Below, piece after piece: positions 346-27,560 of a DNA stretch of 29,072 bases. The number at the start of each line of letters is the position of its first letter. Within the stretch, counting starts at the first letter, position 1. A program made the position numbers and the translations under genes. This stretch comes from a virus: the IMG/VR virus record IMGVR_UViG_3300037485_001554, positions 1 to 29,072 of that record; one strand, 5' to 3'. The notes under the pieces are model-generated. The model saw only the letters and a program-made list of their open reading frames with translations. It made no database searches and was not told the origin of the DNA.

Positions 346-444
346 GGCTAATGTTGGGTATATGTGTTGTACGCCTAACCAAAAAACTTTAAAATTAAGT
401 ACAACACTTCATTGGCGTATAACATATATACCTTGTTATAAGCC
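346..444. repeat. attC-like imperfect inverted repeat A
   Basis: The left arm (346-375) and right arm (414-444) are imperfect inverted complements. The inner 20 bases pair with only two differences, both G for A and hence wobble-type, and both arms carry the motif TACGCC/GGCGTA at the hairpin base. The right arm ends in CCTTGTTATAAGC. A second, exact 9-base pairing is possible between GTGTTGTAC (364-372) and GTACAACAC (399-407), so alternative folds exist. No gene lies in this stretch. Size (about 100 bases), imperfect symmetry and position between short genes fit an integron attC site. The 3' core GTTATAA keeps GTT but departs from the classical GTTRRRY, so I call it attC-like only. Confidence 0.55.
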
Positions 445-462
445 GTTTTAAATTAAATAATT

Positions 463-618
463 ATGGCAAAGAAAATGCAAAATTTACCTGAAGGAATGAT
501 ACCTGATAGAGATAATGTCGTTTACTACGATACAGAAAAAGGACAGTTTTACATTATTAAATGGGAAGATGGTGGAAATAATGACATCCCTATCAGACAT
601 TATATACCGAAGCCTTAA
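463..618 (+). CDS. Small hypothetical protein, first gene of cassette 1
   Basis: This 51-residue protein starts with ATG 19 bases after inverted repeat A, the short leader expected of a gene-cassette ORF. It is acidic to neutral with no Cys and no hydrophobic segment. Its sequence (MAKKMQNLPEGMIPDRDN, then YYDTEKGQFYIIKWEDG) looks like a small beta-strand-rich globular protein. It ends with IPKP, and the same 12 bases, ATACCGAAGCCT, recur at 682-693 in the next gene. The next ATG follows its stop codon directly. I do not recognise the family. A purine-rich Shine-Dalgarno sequence is absent. Confidence 0.6.
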   Translation: MAKKMQNLPEGMIPDRDNVVYYDTEKGQFYIIKWEDGGNNDIPIRHYIPKP

Positions 619-903
619 ATGGCTTATAATGTAAATAATAAAAACAGTTTTGATATGAAAAGTACAACATTTACAATAGAGATACCGAAGCCTAAAGGAT
701 TGCAACCTAAGATAAAACAACCTAAAAAATTGTTTTTATTTAGTGTTATGCTTTCGTTTTTTGGCGTTGGCAAGAAAAAGCAAACTTGTAAAAACTGCAA
801 ATTTAATAATGAGCAGTATTGTGTAGTAGGAACATATTATGCAGAAAAAGGACTAAACAGAATTTGCTATGAAGGTGAATTGTGGGAAGGAAATGAAGCA
901 TAA
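619..903 (+). CDS. Small Cys-containing hypothetical protein, end of cassette 1
   Basis: A 94-residue protein if read from the ATG abutting the previous stop; an internal ATG at 655 would give 82 residues and is equally plausible. The middle has a moderately hydrophobic stretch (LFLFSVMLSFFGVG) followed by KKK. The C-terminal third has four cysteines in the pattern CKNC-x7-C-x14-C, suggesting a small zinc- or disulfide-stabilised knuckle. Its stop codon TAA (901-903) lies within inverted repeat B, in the ATAAC that pairs with GTTAT at 992-996. Overlap of a cassette gene's stop with the 5' end of attC is common in integrons. Function unknown. Confidence 0.6.
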   Translation: MAYNVNNKNSFDMKSTTFTIEIPKPKGLQPKIKQPKKLFLFSVMLSFFGVGKKKQTCKNCKFNNEQYCVVGTYYAEKGLNRICYEGELWEGNEA

Positions 904-1000
904 CGGATGGCGGTATGGTTTAGTAAAGGCTGACCACTACCGCCCAGTCGAAGAACAAAACTTAATTCAGCCTTTATTAACTATACCGCTTGTTATAAGC
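898..1000. repeat. attC-like imperfect inverted repeat B
   Basis: This is the clearest of the hairpin sites. Outer pairing is ATAAC (900-904) with GTTAT (992-996). A short unpaired spacer follows (905-909 opposite 990-991). An inner stem then runs from GCGGTAT (910-916) with ATACCGC (983-989) to AAAGGCTG (925-932) with CAGCCTTT (968-975), interrupted by an unmatched T on the left arm. This R box, spacer, L box and extra-helical base plan is the architecture of integron attC sites. The loop (933-967) is variable. The right end, CTTGTTATAAGC, is identical to that of repeat A (432-443). The primary sequence of the two sites otherwise differs, as expected of attC sites rather than of copies of one transposable repeat. 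Confidence 0.6.
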
Positions 1001-1021
1001 TGTATTTAAAATTTTTGAGCG

Positions 1022-1213
1022 ATGAAAACACATCAAGTATTAGATTTACATTACCACGAAGACGAAGGACAAGGTTGCTTTGATGGTACACAACAGGAGT
1101 GCGTGGAATTTGCAGCAACGCAAACACCACATTTTATGTACAAAGTAGTTCCGATGACAAAGGAGGAAATTGAAACACACCCAGACAATATAGTGGTGCG
1201 TGGGCAATTTTAA
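1022..1213 (+). CDS. Small hypothetical protein of cassette 2
   Basis: A 63-residue acidic protein starting 22 bases after repeat B and ending five bases before the half-site at 1219. It therefore fills a segment bounded by the inverted 12-mers CTTGTTATAAGC (989-1000) and GCTTATAACAAG (1219-1230). It is His-rich (LHYHEDEGQGC) with a QQECVEFAATQ helix and a KEEIETHPDN stretch. The QQEC...W/F-type composition resembles small cargo proteins seen in Bacteroidota mobile DNA, but I do not recognise a named family. No Shine-Dalgarno sequence is obvious (gagcgATG). The reverse-strand frame over the same bases is a shadow. Confidence 0.6.
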   Translation: MKTHQVLDLHYHEDEGQGCFDGTQQECVEFAATQTPHFMYKVVPMTKEEIETHPDNIVVRGQF

Positions 1214-1218
1214 ATATT

Positions 1219-1243
1219 GCTTATAACAAGGAAATAAACGCAA
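1219..1243. repeat. Half-site C of the cassette array, and intergenic direct repeat
   Basis: GCTTATAACAAGG (1219-1231) is the exact reverse complement of the right end of repeat A (431-443) and would be the 5' (R'') half of a third attC-like site. No matching right arm follows before the next gene at 1310. A 12-base direct repeat, AAATAAACGCAA, occurs at 1232-1243 and 1296-1307. It may mark the edge of a deletion or the junction where the array meets the phage backbone. The rest of 1244-1309 is AT-rich, with a small TTTAAC/GTTAAA dyad (1271-1294). Confidence 0.4.
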
Positions 1244-1567: not shown

Positions 1568-1813
1568 ATGTATAATTATGTGATTGTGAAGGCAATAATA
1601 TTTATGAAGGATGGTAAGTCAATAGATAAACTAGTTAAGAAACATTATAAATTGAAGATGCTACAATTTATAAGATACAGGGAAAGGCACTTAAAAAGAA
1701 TGATTACTAAGGAGGGGGATGGTGGAAATGTTTATTTTGTTTACAAGCAGAAATTAACTAATAAAGAATATCGAAAAGAATTAAAGGAAAATCCTTTAAT
1801 GTGTGAAAAATAA
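1568..1813 (+). CDS. Basic hypothetical protein
   Basis: A strongly basic protein of 81 residues from the ATG at 1568. A TTG at 1535 would give 92 residues and an ATG at 1604 would give 69. The body is rich in Lys, Arg and Tyr (LVKKHYKLKMLQFIRYRERHLKRM) with a Gly turn and a charged C-terminal helix (NKEYRKELKENP), compatible with nucleic-acid binding. It overlaps the downstream phosphoesterase start by 11 bases, suggesting translational coupling. Family not recognised, and the start is uncertain. Confidence 0.5.
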   Translation: MYNYVIVKAIIFMKDGKSIDKLVKKHYKLKMLQFIRYRERHLKRMITKEGDGGNVYFVYKQKLTNKEYRKELKENPLMCEK

Positions 1814-2789
1814 AAAACCTAAAATGAAAACTAAAAGATTACATACACTGCCATTTATTGAGAAACATAAAACAATGGCAAAAAGGGCTGTTGCAAAACT
1901 TTTATTAGAAGAATTTCCAAATGATTTTTCTGATATTGAATCTGCAAGAACATTTATAAGAAAACTAACAGGAAATCAAGGCACTTCTCATACATCAGGT
2001 AAAATTAGAATACTTGATACATTTGGAAAGTTGCCGGAAGAAGTTACCGACATTCCTTCAGAACCCTATTATTTACCAAAGAGTGTTAGACGACTTGGAT
2101 TATTATTCGATGTGCATGGATTGTTTCATGATTCAGATGCGTACATTCTGGCTTTAAAATGGCTTATAAATAATGGTTGTGATTGTATTTTTTTAGGTGG
2201 CGATTTTGTTGATTTTTATTCTATTAGCAAGTTTCAATCATTGCCTAATAAGTCTCATTTTCAAAACGAAAGGGCGTGGGCGATAGAAGCATTACAACAA
2301 CTTCAAGAATTATTTCCACAGGTTTACTACAAAAAAGGAAATCATGAAAATAGGTATGAGCATTATATGTTAAGAAATGCACCTTTAATTTTCAACGAAT
2401 CAGAGCATAATATTGATACATTATTTGGGTTTAAGGATTCAAGAATTAAGTACATACATGAAAGCCAATTAACAATAGTTGGTAAGTTAGGATTACTTCA
2501 TGGCCACGAAATAAGAGGAGGAGGGGTTGTGAATATTGCGAGAAATAAAATGCTTAAATTCTTTGACAACCTAGCTTTCGGACATCACCATAAGAGAAAC
2601 GAGGAGTTAATTAAGAATGGAATGACTGATGAATATTTTGGAGCTTATTCTGTGGGTTGTTTATGTAAGACAAAGGTAGGGTATTATCCATTTAATCAGT
2701 GGAATCATGGCTTTGGGTTTGTTGAATTAGACAAAGACGGCTTATTTAGTTTTCACAATAAAATAATAATCAGAGGAAAGGTGTTATGA
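1803..2789 (+). CDS. Calcineurin-like metallophosphoesterase
   Basis: A 328-residue protein carrying the complete metallophosphoesterase motif set in order (numbered from the GTG start): DVH (103-105), GDFVD (133-137), GNHE (179-182), HGHE (233-236) and GHHH (260-263). These Asp, Asn and His residues form the two-metal centre that hydrolyses phosphoesters. The first 100 residues are basic with a helical stretch (KRAVAKLLLEEFPNDF) and may bind nucleic acid. Phage relatives are variously nucleases, phosphodiesterases or polynucleotide phosphatases, and substrate cannot be told from sequence. An ATG at 1824 is an alternative start. The gene ends in an ATGA overlap with a 19-codon mini-ORF. Confidence 0.88.
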   Translation: MKNKKPKMKTKRLHTLPFIEKHKTMAKRAVAKLLLEEFPNDFSDIESARTFIRKLTGNQGTSHTSGKIRILDTFGKLPEEVTDIPSEPYYLPKSVRRLGLLFDVHGLFHDSDAYILALKWLINNGCDCIFLGGDFVDFYSISKFQSLPNKSHFQNERAWAIEALQQLQELFPQVYYKKGNHENRYEHYMLRNAPLIFNESEHNIDTLFGFKDSRIKYIHESQLTIVGKLGLLHGHEIRGGGVVNIARNKMLKFFDNLAFGHHHKRNEELIKNGMTDEYFGAYSVGCLCKTKVGYYPFNQWNHGFGFVELDKDGLFSFHNKIIIRGKVL

Positions 2790-4909: not shown

Positions 4910-5270
4910 ACAGATCTGTACTTATTTGAAATTTCAGTACCCAAATATCTTATTCAATACAGATATGTCGGGGGTTAGAATGACAATGGGTCAAGCAATG
5001 CAAGTAAAGAATCTAAGGAGTTGCAATGGGTTTCCGGATATAGTAATTTACGAAAGAAACGAAAGATTTAATGCTTTATTTTTGGAGGTTAAAAAAGAAT
5101 CTCCATATCTTAAAAATGAATTTAGAACCCTAAAAAAAGACAAGCACCTGGAAGAGCAAGAAAATATACATAAAAAATTAATTTTAGAAGGATATTTCGC
5201 TTGTTTTGTTTGGAACTTTGAAATGGCAAAGGATATAATTGATAGATATTATAATAATAAAATAAGATGA
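4887..5270 (+). CDS. VRR-NUC domain nuclease
   Basis: A 127-residue single-domain PD-(D/E)xK nuclease of the VRR-NUC family. The catalytic layout is visible: Glu/Gln-rich first helix (TEKQLHKQICTYLKF), GFPDIVI (PD at 50-51), FLEVKK (EVK at 67-69), then the conserved EEQENIHKKLILEGYFACF, in which the Gln and the aromatic-rich strand match the family. Phage VRR-NUC proteins are structure-specific nucleases, often placed as Holliday-junction resolvases. The pairing with an HNH protein and an SSB-like protein suggests DNA recombination or replication-intermediate processing. Ends in an ATGA overlap with the next ORF. Confidence 0.85.
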   Translation: MTEKQLHKQICTYLKFQYPNILFNTDMSGVRMTMGQAMQVKNLRSCNGFPDIVIYERNERFNALFLEVKKESPYLKNEFRTLKKDKHLEEQENIHKKLILEGYFACFVWNFEMAKDIIDRYYNNKIR

Positions 5271-5448: not shown

Positions 5449-5718
5449 ATGGCAGAAAAGATTTACGCAAAAGGAATTTACTTTAATAAAAAAGGTGGCA
5501 ACGCTCCCGATTTCGTATTAGGTAAAATATCTATAAAAAAAGAAGCATTAATTGAATGGCTAGGAAGTTTAGAAGTAAATGAAAGCGGATATATAAACCT
5601 TGATATATTAGAGGGAAAAGAGGGCAAACCATTTATAAGTTTAAACACTTGGAAAAAAGAAGAAAAAAAGTCCGGCCAACCAGTATCAATAAGTAAAGAA
5701 GAAGACTTGCCATTTTAA
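5449..5718 (+). CDS. Small protein with SSB-type acidic C-terminal tip
   Basis: An 89-residue protein opening MAEKIYAKGIYFNKKGGNAP, with alternating strands (FVLGKISIKKEALIEWL, INLDIL, PFISLNTWKK). It has a low-complexity polar linker and a terminal EEDLPF. The tip mimics the D-D-x-P-F tail through which bacterial SSB recruits replication and repair proteins. Small proteins of this kind occur in many Bacteroidota phages next to DNA-metabolism genes; whether the body is an OB fold cannot be settled by eye. The neighbouring VRR-NUC and HNH genes support a DNA-associated role. Confidence 0.7.
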   Translation: MAEKIYAKGIYFNKKGGNAPDFVLGKISIKKEALIEWLGSLEVNESGYINLDILEGKEGKPFISLNTWKKEEKKSGQPVSISKEEDLPF

Positions 5719-23330: not shown

Positions 23331-23788
23331 TGACATTTGAAGAAGTCATAATTAAACAGAAAAAATTAGCAGAGAAAATAAGTGAAATTGATTTCTCTGA
23401 ATTCTCTTGCCAACAAGCCCATGCGTATTTAACAGGAAGATTATGGTCGCAAGGTGCGGCTAAAGATGTCAATGATACATTACTTCCTATTTATTCAGAA
23501 GGCTACAAGCAACTATATAGAAAAACAACAGATACATGGGATTTACATGTAACAGGAGATTTAATAAGAAGTATATCACTTGTTAATACGCCAAGTAAAA
23601 ATAGTTGTGCTTTAGTAATTAAGCCAATTCAGAATGGAAAATATAACACTCAAGAATATTCAAAGACACTTGAAGAAAGAAGCGGACAAACTATATTTCA
23701 ACTTTCTAAAAAAGAACATGAGCAAGTGGTTAGTGATACTATCCAAGAAATAGGAAGACAATTAAAAGAAATAATAAAAACAGTATGA
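23330..23788 (+). CDS. HK97 gp10-like tail completion protein candidate
   Basis: A 152-residue protein with the pattern of gp10-like neck proteins: a helical N-terminus, then TWDLHVTGDLIRSISL, the TGxLxxSI stretch seen at that place in the family. A surface strand segment follows and a closing LEERSGQTIFQLSKKEHEQV. Such proteins close the tail top and join it to the connector. It overlaps both neighbours by one to four bases. The glycosylation cluster follows directly. Assignment is moderate. Confidence 0.6.
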   Translation: MTFEEVIIKQKKLAEKISEIDFSEFSCQQAHAYLTGRLWSQGAAKDVNDTLLPIYSEGYKQLYRKTTDTWDLHVTGDLIRSISLVNTPSKNSCALVIKPIQNGKYNTQEYSKTLEERSGQTIFQLSKKEHEQVVSDTIQEIGRQLKEIIKTV

Positions 23789-24318
23789 TTTGGGAATTCA
23801 TCCCTTATGGACAGGAGGAAACTGAAAAAAACTATGGAGCAATATGTAATAAGTATTGCGAAATGGTTCCTGATAATGATTGGATTATCATAAGAGATTA
23901 TGATACAATGTGGATGACTTGGGATTATCTTCCAAAGATTCAAAAATATATAACCAAATATCCTAACACAGGACTTTTTACGACCTACACAAATAGAGTA
24001 GGTAATTTAGCACAATGCTTTAAAGGAATAATTTCTGAAGACAGAGATATAAAAAATCACGTAAAAATAGCCAAAAAGTTAAGTGATATTGAGTCAGCAA
24101 AAGAAATAAAGACTTCTATTTCAGGAATGGTAATGATATTTAAAAAAAGTACATGGAAAGAAGTTGGAGGTTTTAAGGATGGAATTCTAACTGTTGATAA
24201 TAATTTTTCTAAAAAGATTTTGAAGTCCGGAAAGAAAATACTACTTTTACAATCACTATATCTTTTTCATTATTATAGACTTATTGAAGGTATAGGATTT
24301 AAAGAACATTTACTATGA
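23785..24318 (+). CDS. Short GT2-type glycosyltransferase
   Basis: A 177-residue GT-A-fold transferase of the short phage type. WIIIRDYDTMW (Asp-Tyr-Asp at 38-40) is the metal-binding DXD motif. A loop with SISGMVMIFKKSTWKEVGGF follows, then a helix DNNFSKKILKSGKKILLL and LFHYYRL. These match the acceptor side of family GT2 proteins. The usual N-terminal nucleotide-binding strand is very short, so it may need a partner or use an unusual donor. It opens a six-gene overlapping unit. The start ATG overlaps the previous stop (ATGA). Confidence 0.75.
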   Translation: MIWEFIPYGQEETEKNYGAICNKYCEMVPDNDWIIIRDYDTMWMTWDYLPKIQKYITKYPNTGLFTTYTNRVGNLAQCFKGIISEDRDIKNHVKIAKKLSDIESAKEIKTSISGMVMIFKKSTWKEVGGFKDGILTVDNNFSKKILKSGKKILLLQSLYLFHYYRLIEGIGFKEHLL

Positions 24319-25199
24319 GAAAAATTTGTGTAATTAGTACTGATCCTTCATTTTTTAACGGACACACCCTTGTTAATGCATTGCGAAAAAAGGTAGAAGT
24401 GATTGCAGTCTTTAAAAAGAAAGATGTAAAAGGAATGTGGAAAGATGTTAAATGTTTATATGGTTACGATAAGATTCCTAAAGTAGATGAGTACCTTGTA
24501 ATAAGTGGAGGTTGTTTCATGGAGGTAAATCATTTATTGAGCGGAAAGGTATCTGTAATTTTAAGTGATACGCCATATAGATTTCATCATGAACAAATAG
24601 ACAAAGATATAACAAGGCTAAAGGCGAGAGTATTTTGTATGCCTGATATGTTTTATTGTTGTGGAGTAAAAAGAGAGGGTTTGCTTCATCCTTTTGATTT
24701 AGATAATATTCCGATAGTTAAACATAAAAACATTACTCTTTGTCATTCGCCTTTCTCGGACAAGAAAGAAATAACAAAAGGAACTCAAGATATTATAGAA
24801 GTTTTTGAAAAGATAAAATCTAAATACGGATTTGAGTATAAGATTTTAAAAGGCTTAAGTTGGAAGGAATGTTTAAAAGAGAAAGCGAAATGTCATATAT
24901 TTGTAGACCAGTATTTAAGCAACAAATCAACGATAGCAAATTACAGAGGAGGTTTGGCTAAGTCAGGACTTGAGGCGATGTTATTTAAGTCATTGACATT
25001 TACAAGTGGATTTGCTTTTAATTGTGAACTCCCACCACCTCCGGTGGTGTGGTGTAATACTAATCTTTTTGAAATTATTCAGAATTATATATTAAATAAG
25101 CAAGTAATGAATGAGGTAATTGAAAGTCAGTATAAATGGGCAAAAACATATACTTCTTTGGAATATGTATCTAATAGAATTTTAAATGAGAAAAATTAA
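24315..25199 (+). CDS. GT-B-type glycosyltransferase
   Basis: A 294-residue protein with the two-domain layout of GT-B enzymes. The N-terminal Rossmann part starts MRKICVISTDPSFFNGHTL. The C-terminal donor domain opens NITLCHSPFSDKKEITKGTQ, a GT4-like strand and helix, continues with GFEYKILKGLSWKECLKEK and CHIFVDQ, and has a YRGGLAKSGLEAM turn in the place of the GT4 E-x7-E/GLxxxEA motif. It would transfer an activated sugar to an acceptor. The start overlaps the upstream stop by four bases and the end overlaps the next gene by 14. Confidence 0.72.
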   Translation: MRKICVISTDPSFFNGHTLVNALRKKVEVIAVFKKKDVKGMWKDVKCLYGYDKIPKVDEYLVISGGCFMEVNHLLSGKVSVILSDTPYRFHHEQIDKDITRLKARVFCMPDMFYCCGVKREGLLHPFDLDNIPIVKHKNITLCHSPFSDKKEITKGTQDIIEVFEKIKSKYGFEYKILKGLSWKECLKEKAKCHIFVDQYLSNKSTIANYRGGLAKSGLEAMLFKSLTFTSGFAFNCELPPPPVVWCNTNLFEIIQNYILNKQVMNEVIESQYKWAKTYTSLEYVSNRILNEKN

Positions 25200-25716
25200 C
25201 TTTATTGATTGCGGAGCTTTTGATGGTTGTTCAATAAGTCAAGCAAGGAAACTTTGGAAAGATTGTACTATTTATTCTTTTGAGCCATTACCGGAAAATA
25301 TAGAAAAGATAAAATATTGCGGTGTTAATCTAATTAAAAAAGCTGTATGGATTGAAGATGGAACTGCTGATTTTCATATAGGACTTCCGCAGAGTGGTAC
25401 TCTTATCAAAGGGAAAACAACAGGAAAACTAAACGATTGTATAGAAGTAGAAACTATTAACTTTTCTAAATGGTTAAAAGATAATGTCAATAAAGACGAC
25501 TACAATATCGTTAAAATGAATATCGAGGGAGCCGAGTATGAAGTAATAAATCATTTGTATAAAAATAATATGTTAAGTTGGATAAGCAAGTGGTTTGTTC
25601 AATGGCACGTAGGTAAGATTCCTATTGAGTTAGAAGAACATAAAAGAATAAGTAAATTAATAAAATTTGAATCATGGAAAGTAATGTCAAAAGATACGAA
25701 ATCATACTTTACTTAA
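25186..25716 (+). CDS. FkbM-family methyltransferase
   Basis: A 176-residue S-adenosylmethionine-dependent O-methyltransferase. Motif I is FIDCGAFDG (6-14), the acidic strand-2 end is FEPLPENI (about 32-39), and motif IV/post-motif is NIVKMNIEGAEYEVI, the MDIEGAE signature of FkbM enzymes. These methylate hydroxyls, often on sugars. In a glycosyltransferase cluster it most likely methylates the transferred glycan, capping it or masking it from host recognition. It overlaps the next methyltransferase by 43 bases in another frame. Confidence 0.85.
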   Translation: MRKINFIDCGAFDGCSISQARKLWKDCTIYSFEPLPENIEKIKYCGVNLIKKAVWIEDGTADFHIGLPQSGTLIKGKTTGKLNDCIEVETINFSKWLKDNVNKDDYNIVKMNIEGAEYEVINHLYKNNMLSWISKWFVQWHVGKIPIELEEHKRISKLIKFESWKVMSKDTKSYFT

Positions 25717-26255
25717 TCAATAAGTACGATTATAAATCTTATCTTGAAATAGGAGTACAAAAGGGTGTTACATTCGAAAGGATTCCGATTAAAAAAGTAG
25801 GTGTAGATCCGATGCCACAATACGAAAGTCCTAATATAGTTCGCAGGACTTCGGATACTTTTTTTAAAGAAAATAAAGAAAAATTTGATATAATTTTCAT
25901 TGATGGACTTCACTTGTCAGAGCAAGTATTAAAAGACATTACGAATTCACTCGAAGTTCTTAACGAAAAAGGAATTATATTAGTTCATGATTGCAATCCT
26001 TTAGTTAAGGAAGAGGCTAATAGATTACGAACAACAAAAAGATGGAATGGTGATGTTTGGAAAGGATTTATAAGAGCAAGGTGTTTGGGTTATAAGTCTG
26101 GTTGTATAAATGAAGATGAGGGCATTGGGTGGATAACTTTACAAAAAGAGCAAATAGAAATACCGTCTATTAGTTGGGATGAATTTGTTTTAAATAGAAA
26201 AAAATATCTTAATTTAATGTCTTACAATGAATTCAAAAGTAGTATATTCAGTTAA
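25674..26255 (+). CDS. Class I SAM-dependent methyltransferase
   Basis: A 193-residue methyltransferase of the Methyltransf_24 type. SYLEIGVQKG (23-31) is motif I, KVGVDPMP (about 41-48) the acidic strand-2 end, DIIFIDGLHLSEQVLKDI (about 73) the DGxH signature, and GIILVHDCNP the motif with the metal-binding Asp. Proteins of this kind methylate glycans or other small acceptors. The 43-base overlap with the FkbM gene is long for this window, and the start lies well inside it; a later ATG (25686, the fifth codon) is possible. Confidence 0.82.
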   Translation: MESNVKRYEIILYLINKYDYKSYLEIGVQKGVTFERIPIKKVGVDPMPQYESPNIVRRTSDTFFKENKEKFDIIFIDGLHLSEQVLKDITNSLEVLNEKGIILVHDCNPLVKEEANRLRTTKRWNGDVWKGFIRARCLGYKSGCINEDEGIGWITLQKEQIEIPSISWDEFVLNRKKYLNLMSYNEFKSSIFS

Positions 26256-26868
26256 TATAGGAGGGTATGATAATCTTATTGAGCCCATCAAGGAAAAGGG
26301 AATTAAGTATATCTATATAACTGATAGAATTTATAAGAGTGATGTTTGGCAGTTTATGAATCCTATTGTTACTTTTGATGACCCGGCTGTTACGAATAGA
26401 TTTCATAAGATACTTTATTTTAATATGTTTGATTGTGATACTCTCTATATAGATTCTAATGTAGAACTTCTTTGTAAACCTAGTGTAATATTTGAGTATT
26501 TAAAAGGAAATGATATGGCGTGTTTTGACCATTCAAAAGCAAGTGATTCAAGAGACAACATACTAGATGAAATAAAAGCTTGTATAAGAATTGGAAAAGA
26601 TTCAAAAGAAAAATTAGAAAGTCTTTATGAATTTATGCAAAAAAATCATACTAAAAAAGGTCTTATATGCGGTAACATAATTGCAAGAAGCGATTCTTAT
26701 GTAATGAGGGAACTCATGAAGGATTGGTGGGATATGTGTAGGAATTGGACATTTAGAGACCAATGTACTTTCAATTATTTGGCAGACTATTATAAAATCA
26801 AGATTAACTATATTCAGAAAAATTTAAGAAATAATGATTTAGTAAAAGTATGGAAGCACAAGACTTAA
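26227..26868 (+). CDS. Glycosyltransferase, DUF616/TOD1-like
   Basis: A 213-residue protein with the layout of DUF616 (TOD1/MUCI70-like) transferases. It opens with a strand VVYSVNIGGYDNLIEPI, then YIYITDR. KILYFNMFDCDTLYIDSNVE follows, in which Asp-Ser-Asn (76-78) takes the place of the metal-binding DXD. Near the end is a helix FRDQCTFNYLADYY. Such enzymes add a sugar to protein or polysaccharide acceptors. It overlaps both neighbours, by 29 and 19 bases, consistent with one polycistronic message. Confidence 0.7.
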   Translation: MNSKVVYSVNIGGYDNLIEPIKEKGIKYIYITDRIYKSDVWQFMNPIVTFDDPAVTNRFHKILYFNMFDCDTLYIDSNVELLCKPSVIFEYLKGNDMACFDHSKASDSRDNILDEIKACIRIGKDSKEKLESLYEFMQKNHTKKGLICGNIIARSDSYVMRELMKDWWDMCRNWTFRDQCTFNYLADYYKIKINYIQKNLRNNDLVKVWKHKT

Positions 26869-27560
26869 TGATTCCAATAGGAAAGAGCAATGGGGATTAT
26901 TCTGAGTTAAAAATTACTTTACGAAGTATAGAAAGACATTTTAAAAATTTAGGGAATATATATATTGTAGGTGCAAGACCGCGATGGATAAAAGGAGTTA
27001 TTTATATTGAATGTGATGACCCATATACGAATAACAAAGATGCTAATATAATACGTAAAGTTTTAAAGGTTTGTGATTATCCTATAAGTCAAGAATTTAT
27101 CCGTCAAAGTGATGATCAGATTTGGATTAAAGACATAGAAAAAGTAACCATTGGACACAATGGAAAAATAATTGCAAAGGCTTCTGAAAATCGTAAATGG
27201 GTAGATAGGCTTTGGCGTACAAGTGAGGAAATGAAAAAACTAAAACTTTGCTATTATAATTATGATATTCACGCACCACTCCCAGTAGACAAGGACAAGT
27301 TTAAAGAAACTTTTAAAAAGTTTGACCTTAAAAAAGGATATACTATTAATTCACTTTATTTTAATTACAACTTAAAGGAACATAAAGAGATAGATAAAAA
27401 TATAGTACTATCAATGCGACATTATAAAAAAATACATGAGGACAAACTAAAAGAAACAATGAAAGGATATTCTTTTCTTGAACACAATCCAAATGGATGG
27501 AAAGCTATCGAGCCAATTTTATATAAATTATTTCCTGTTAAAAGTAAATTTGAAAGATAA
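26850..27560 (+). CDS. Stealth-like / GT-A glycosyltransferase
   Basis: A 236-residue protein resembling Stealth-type sugar phosphotransferases and related phage transferases. It has SELKITLRSIERHFKNLG, NIYIVGARPRWI (strand and helix of the nucleotide-binding half), an ECDDPYTN strand and the metal-binding EFIRQSDDQIWI (Asp-Asp at 88-89). A late LSMRHYKKI motif follows. Stealth enzymes join sugar-1-phosphates in capsules. It closes the six-gene unit, after which a new promoter begins. An ATG at 26868 is an alternative start that removes six residues. Assignment to a transferase is good; which subfamily is uncertain. Confidence 0.7.
   Translation: MEAQDLMIPIGKSNGDYSELKITLRSIERHFKNLGNIYIVGARPRWIKGVIYIECDDPYTNNKDANIIRKVLKVCDYPISQEFIRQSDDQIWIKDIEKVTIGHNGKIIAKASENRKWVDRLWRTSEEMKKLKLCYYNYDIHAPLPVDKDKFKETFKKFDLKKGYTINSLYFNYNLKEHKEIDKNIVLSMRHYKKIHEDKLKETMKGYSFLEHNPNGWKAIEPILYKLFPVKSKFER

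Follow-up and report, generated by a model that had tools for sequence, protein, structure and literature searches.

A phage contig with the very probable remnant of an integron-like cassette array, and its relatives in Bacteroidota phages and chromosomes

The analysed stretch of DNA, further referred to as the window, comprises 29,072 nucleotides of a 29-kb IMG/VR contig (IMGVR_UViG_3300037485_001554) with phage terminase, portal and tape-measure genes. It contains two long imperfect inverted repeats, site A (346–443) and site B (898–1000). Folding of the single-stranded DNA compared with shuffled sequences gave z-scores of −3.3 and −4.2, respectively, with no equal among 200 shuffles. A covariance model whose training set was limited to other phages, with the window and its closest homologues left out, has exactly two matches in the window, site A (E-value 1.7e-7) and site B (4.9e-7); the next best candidate has an E-value of 0.4. 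No Rfam family matches the window hairpins at gathering scores. Both hairpins end with CTTGTTATAAGC (432–443 and 989–1000), and the reverse complement of this terminus, GCTTATAACAAG, is located at 1219–1230. These three sites are the only exact copies of TTGTTATAAGC or its reverse complement in the window; if one mismatch is allowed, five copies are found compared to 1.2 expected. An earlier reading made from the sequence alone had described the two repeats, their common 3’-end with a reverse-complement half-site, and a gene starting at 619 with the stop codon inside a site; all these elements were recovered. The features of the locus are listed below.

3–341, + strand: left neighbour outside the array, NinB/Orf-like recombination mediator (phrog_72, E-value 1.4e-16)
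346–443, + strand: site A, attC-like hairpin (fold and window-free model); inner stem GGTATATGTGTTGTACGCC / GGCGTATAACATATATACC; degenerate 5’ box GGCTAATG at 346–353 (expected form xyzTAACGG); 3’ box GTTATAAGC at 435–443
463–618, + strand: cassette gene 1, 51 aa, function unknown (open reading frame)
622–630, + strand: worn 3’ box of cassette 1, GCTTATAAT (sequence)
619–903, + strand: cassette gene 2, 94 aa, function unknown; stop codon inside the 5’ box of site B
898–1000, + strand: site B, attC-like hairpin (fold z-score −4.2, model E-value 4.9e-7); 5’ box GCATAAC at 898–904; 3’ box GTTATAAGC at 992–1000
1022–1213, + strand: cassette gene 3, 63 aa, function unknown (open reading frame)
1219–1227, + strand: 3’ box of the last cassette, GCTTATAAC (sequence and the matched-ends rule, see below)
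1310–1525, + strand: right neighbour outside the array, DUF3310 protein (PF11753, E-value 1.9e-6)

Neither a hairpin nor a recognisable attI was found in the window 3’ of the 1219–1227 box, and no tyrosine recombinase was found among the window open reading frames, as the sequence-only reading had also reported. The three cargo genes have no Pfam, PHROG or PADLOC matches above the cut-off. Gene 1 is absent from every phage of the annotated collection. A relative of gene 2 from L289 (64% identity) likewise ends at GCATAAC and diverges beyond it; with the exception of this TAAC boundary, no recognisable sites adjoin gene 2 relatives in four other phages. In many cassettes a conserved leader, YGTTTTAATT or AGTACGGTTTAATTAGTACAAA, lies between the hairpin and the start codon, e.g. 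at 444–462 of the window, 2932–2975 of L066 and 3566–3610 of L074; it is possibly a promoter or a ribosome-binding region. Elsewhere in the window (23785–27560) there is a run of small genes resembling glycosyltransferases or methyltransferases, as judged by eye only.

Viral contigs were scanned for TAACGG...TTGTTATAAGC, which yielded 101 loci. About one quarter of them contain true hairpins, which share a single plan: xyzTAACGGTTG comes first, then a stem of about 20 bp, a loop that varies and finally TTGTTATAAGC. About two thirds of the first pattern matches were chance ones and were excluded based on folding and the covariance model. The model reveals long arrays, such as 23 sites across 23 kb of a single contig, and a simple site finder produced 258 sites compared to 35 in the reversed sequence. 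The family has the site structure of the attC type, i.e. a common fold with varied sequence, the loops ranging from about 10 nt to an entire gene. The GTT trinucleotide is invariant in the core; GTTRRRY fits only 17 of 172 cores, the actual core being GTT[AG][TG]NN. Hence the departure of the 3’ core from GTTRRRY, seen initially in the window, extends to the family, which does not satisfy the integron core-box criterion (RYYYAAC / GTTRRRY). Among stem mismatches, G.T prevails over A.C (92:17 in phages, 27:2 in chromosomes). This bias is what strand selection would leave; a folded single strand as the substrate is an inference without a recombination assay. A search of the GTDB representatives with the strict site pattern gave 14 matches, about the chance expectation, none of them of the family form, and a literature search with the core sequence returned only unrelated primers. 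Several of the viral contigs are fragments (terminase is found in 9 of 26), and the claim that phages carry such arrays rests mainly on the window and on cultured phages.

If these arrays consist of integron cassettes, the two ends of a gene segment have to match, because both ends of one cassette join in the circle as one attC; no match is expected within one hairpin, because a site in a linear array joins two different cassettes. We compared the bases following a hairpin (GTTAzyx) with those preceding the next one (xyzTAAC) at four variable positions. Perfect complementarity across the gene segment was observed in 101 of 129 cases, compared to 7.8 ± 2.5 after shuffling and never more than 19. 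In contrast, only 7 of 180 hairpins have matching boxes of their own, which does not exceed chance, and a comparison of boxes two sites apart likewise gives the chance level. The same holds for other sets: matched ends are observed in 45 of 56 segments of integrase-led arrays and in 120 of 146 chromosomal ones (14 of 190 for boxes of the same site). Matched ends across the gene are thus a signature of integron cassettes. In the window, GTTATAAGC at 992–1000 is perfectly complementary to GCTTATAAC at 1219–1227 around the gene 1022–1213, which explains the inverted 12-mers at 989–1000 and 1219–1230 and bears out the previous suggestion that 989–1230 is a cassette-like segment with a single gene. 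Likewise, GTTATAAGC at 435–443 pairs with the worn GCTTATAAT at 622–630, except for the last base of the box, around the gene 463–618. The boundaries initially suggested for the cassettes stand in part: the half-site at 1219–1227 is indeed an end, namely the 3’-end of the last cassette, but the segment 432–1000 holds two genes rather than one.

Homology between arrays begins at TAAC and continues via the hairpin into the leader and the gene; for instance, the site B homologue in L033, L065 and L072 begins precisely at TAAC. The window and L064, an unrelated phage, share a block of 280 bp with 95% identity (353–632 of the window) and unrelated flanks. The block consists of site A without the 5’ box and the gene 463–618, as far as TTATAA. 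The L064 site is 95% identical to site A and has an intact 5’ box, GCATAACGG; the counterpart of the 622–630 box in L064 is also intact, CTTATAACG, and is followed by another hairpin, which is lost in the window. L168 contains an exact duplicate of a 394-bp unit, from TAAC to TAAC. From these homology boundaries, together with L064 and L168, the unit is a hairpin followed by a gene, with the exchange at AA^C, which reads G^TT on the opposite strand. The polarity known from bacteria, a gene followed by its site, was assumed for phages at first and excluded by the homology boundaries and by the Freya isolates described below. No sister phage was found using the metallophosphoesterase of the window (1803–2789) as a query; therefore, gain and loss in the lineage of the window itself rest on the comparison with L064, where the difference is exactly one unit, 353–632.

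In phages, the hairpin is located 5’ of the gene in 132 of 141 cassettes (77:8 in site-led and 55:1 in integrase-led sets), so that the usual integron polarity, a gene followed by its own attC, is not met. Arrays detected by the covariance model are also present in Bacteroidota genomes (loci L141, L149, L268–L270, L274, L282 and others); within one family, 23 of 199 genomes have them. The search of related phages and Bacteroidota genomes proposed by the sequence-only reading thus met a dispersed hairpin family in both. In contrast to phages, the site in Bacteroidota chromosomes lies 3’ of the gene in 125 of 137 cases (15:2 and 110:10). The median segment length is about 330 bp in the phage set, with a few chromosomal segments included, versus about 655 bp in chromosomes. 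Chromosomal arrays of the usual polarity with up to 24 attC-like sites were seen in L141, L149, L268–L270, L274, L282 and L284. Where chromosomal recombinases were observed (L149, L275), they lack the IntI domain, and tools requiring this domain would call such loci integrase-less. Given the gene orientation, a Pc promoter firing from the integrase side is unlikely in phages; promoters have not been mapped.

In phage contigs selected by sites, a tyrosine recombinase gene of the same strand directly follows the array, and a box matching the last site is 43–59 nt upstream of the ATG of this gene. An independent set of loci was selected by the enzyme rather than by sites. In these loci the sites are almost exclusively upstream, none are on the opposite strand, and the genes point towards the integrase in 55 of 56 cases. 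The exceptions are one downstream site in L245 and seven in L250, where the enzyme match is partial. In L250 (about 5001–5252) the match covers only residues 1–84 and is followed by the seven sites; this may be a disrupted integron or an insertion into the integrase gene. In most enzyme-selected loci with arrays, the sequence xyzTAACTATnATATATA is found 55–77 nt before the enzyme match. On the phylogenetic tree of recombinases (28 sequences, a small reference set, Xer as the assumed outgroup), these enzymes form one clade with IntI and the Bacteroidota chromosomal relatives, with 100/100 support and separately from host XerC/D. Catalytic motifs in the alignment are usual in most of them and vary in Ingeline and L010. 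All phage and Bacteroidota recombinases lack the IntI-specific insert of about 35 residues, and TIGR02249 matches them in two pieces below the cut-off; hence the IntI-domain criterion is not met. This domain is held to be defining and necessary (PMC9668308, PMC8138268). The IntI-type recombinase sought by the earlier reading is therefore absent from the window itself; members of the IntI clade do adjoin the arrays of its relatives, but without the IntI-specific domain.

Homologues of the integrase are encoded by the cultured Polaribacter phages Freya and Leef and by Cellulophaga phage Ingeline (records MT732463–72, MT732473 and MT732435 for Freya, Leef and Ingeline). Seven sequenced Freya isolates from one host were compared. 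The compared upstream regions of 3.5–7.6 kb are 100% identical, and the differences are confined to cassettes just before the integrase gene, adjoining an attI-like site xAACACCCCTATA. Each left junction reads ...AAC|, and each right junction rejoins an AAC core, which in most comparisons is the attI AACACCCCTATAAC. The array steps of 842, 902, 472, 2891 and 307 bp exactly equal the total genome-length differences, and hence cassette content explains all length variation of the Freya isolates. An internal unit of 902 bp is present in Freya 10 and missing from Freya 8. Thus the criterion of an attI beside the recombinase is met in phage contigs and in Freya (no attI was found in the window), and cassettes are gained and lost as natural units, as seen in Freya, in the window compared to L064, and in the L168 duplicate. 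The prediction that sisters would differ by whole cassettes accordingly holds for cultured phages as well. The Freya hairpins are shorter and barely detected by the covariance model; in two Freya cassettes the start of the gene, or all of it, lies between the arms of the hairpin, the coding sequence being the loop of the site. Such arrangements were seen at 5483–5790 of L198 and at 1230–1690 of the joined Freya 10 array. The authors of the isolates took the Freya integrase as indicating a potential for the temperate life style (PMC8776804). The integrases in the Freya, Leef and Ingeline records are annotated as pointing to such a life style. The Freya and Leef integrases adjoin cassette arrays and an attI-like core, and lysogeny needs separate evidence. 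As to cargo, a DNA cytosine methyltransferase is encoded within a phage cassette array at 2990–4075 of L066, plausibly for anti-restriction.

The window alone satisfies the CALIN definition, having two attC sites (at least two are required) and no integrase nearby. Its array is a remnant: it retains two sites and three genes, one hairpin is lost, one 5’ box is damaged, and neither an integrase nor a recognisable attI is present. We infer that the recombinase, one hairpin and a part of site A were lost.

Several other explanations were weighed. The one that survives best is passive capture, in which an integrase of the host moved the cassettes in trans out of host integrons and the recombinase of the phage serves for lysogeny. 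It would agree with the close attC-like sites in Bacteroidota chromosomes, with the temperate interpretation of the Freya integrase by its authors (PMC8776804), and with the absence of a recombinase from the window. However, the phage genes are oriented opposite to the chromosomal ones and the phage cassettes are about half as long; moreover, the phage recombinase adjoins an attI-like site with a correctly matched box of the last cassette, and the Freya variation is located at that very attI. We consider capture in trans unlikely. The sequence-only reading had allowed for both an integron integrase acting in trans and a related system carried by the phage itself.

Mobilisation of Xer/dif modules of the pdif type by host XerC and XerD is still less plausible. 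Although the recombinases score well on Xer models and XerC/D are always present in the host, the sites are hairpins of about 100 nt with one exchange core rather than 28-bp dif-like sites, and the array adjoins the gene of a recombinase of its own, which falls outside the clade of host Xer, the units entering beside it. There is hardly any room for the hairpins being terminators, attenuators or structural elements of another kind, lying between ordinary genes that stay in place. They are intergenic, overlap stop codons and fold strongly, but terminators require self-pairing, whereas the outer boxes of one hairpin match at chance compared to 101 of 129 across the gene; whole units are gained and lost at the boxes, and no Rfam family matches. 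What would have refuted an integron-like array, i.e. fixed genes across the block, sites matching no model, and hairpins known only as terminators, was not encountered. Finally, dispersed hairpins of the REP/RAYT or IS200/IS605 type hopping alone without gene cargo can be dismissed just as firmly: similar hairpins do occur at many places, and some homology blocks consist of a hairpin plus merely 50–190 bp, but gene segments have matched ends, exact units containing genes move (L168, Freya, window and L064), and the linkage is to a tyrosine recombinase instead of a Y1 transposase.

Hence the region 346–1227 of the window is very probably a decayed cassette array of an integron-like system carried by Bacteroidota phages. 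The initial suggestion of an integron-like array is upheld by the site family, the matched ends, the turnover of whole units and the IntI-clade integrase of the relatives. A complete system is a row of mobile units, each made of an attC-like hairpin, immediately followed by a short gene and a box xyzTAAC of 7–9 bases; this terminal box complements the GTTAzyx box just after the hairpin. In the free circle, the two boxes and the hairpin would make one complete attC. The simple tyrosine recombinase encoded at the 3’-end of the array is assumed to cut at AA^C, or G^TT in the opposite strand; circles would insert at the attI-like site (xyzTAACTATnATATATA or xAACACCCCTATA) adjoining its gene, and excision of cassettes would proceed by site-by-site recombination. 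Cutting by this recombinase, the circle intermediate and one folded strand as the substrate are inferred, in the absence of a recombination assay; the site family, the matched ends, the position of attI, the linkage of the recombinase, the cassette differences at AAC junctions, the stem asymmetry and the reversed orientation are observed directly.

The system works like an integron (IntI, attI and attC), yet it fails the criteria of the IntI domain, the GTTRRRY core and, in phages, the usual polarity. Both have an array of hairpin sites with single genes, one exchange core, an attI beside the recombinase, cassette ends matched as for a one-site circle, a strand-asymmetric stem and a recombinase of the IntI clade. 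The phage system differs in the lack of the IntI-specific domain, in the core GTT[AG][TG]NN, in the gene being reversed relative to the site, so that transcription runs towards the integrase, and in a short AT-rich attI. Phage CALINs (Qi et al. 2023, PMC9892861) are likewise clusters of attC-like sites in phages, including the flavobacterial Polaribacter phage P12002L, and their attC sites were recombined by IntI1 in the laboratory. That study, however, used canonical attC models and described neither a phage-specific integrase class nor consistent gene reversal, nor did it demonstrate that cassettes turn over naturally among isolates. The Bacteroidota chromosomal arrays share with the phage ones the site family, the matched-ends rule and related recombinases without the IntI domain (L149, L275), but have the usual gene-then-site orientation and segments about twice as long. 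XerC/XerD with dif and pdif also combine simple tyrosine recombinases with gene modules bounded by sites, but rely on double-stranded 28-bp sites and host enzymes and have no attI-recombinase locus. Complete integrons in Bacteroidetes were reported to be rare (PMC9024848). We found no account of integrase-bearing phage integrons with reversed cassettes in the literature, subscription journals and preprints being outside the search. Two features are new, the cassette reversal in phages and the recombinases that group with IntI and lack the IntI domain.

It is fairly probable, in our judgement, that these arrays represent a second integron lineage, residing in Bacteroidota and their phages and handling hairpins without the domain supposed to be essential, and that phages reversed every cassette, turning the array into an expandable accessory locus, where phage transcription runs through the genes into that of the integrase and entry is at the far end. 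Tools requiring either the domain or GTTRRRY miss the whole group, as its enzymes have no such domain and its sites deviate from this core. The finding reveals an active-looking gene-capture platform in cultured phages, which accounts for all length variation among isolates of one phage species, and provides a simple key to the small genes that change rapidly in Bacteroidota phages. What is currently taken for a lysogeny integrase may be a cassette recombinase, and life-style predictions would change accordingly. The flip of orientation between phages and chromosomes offers a clean natural contrast for studying what sets cassette polarity.
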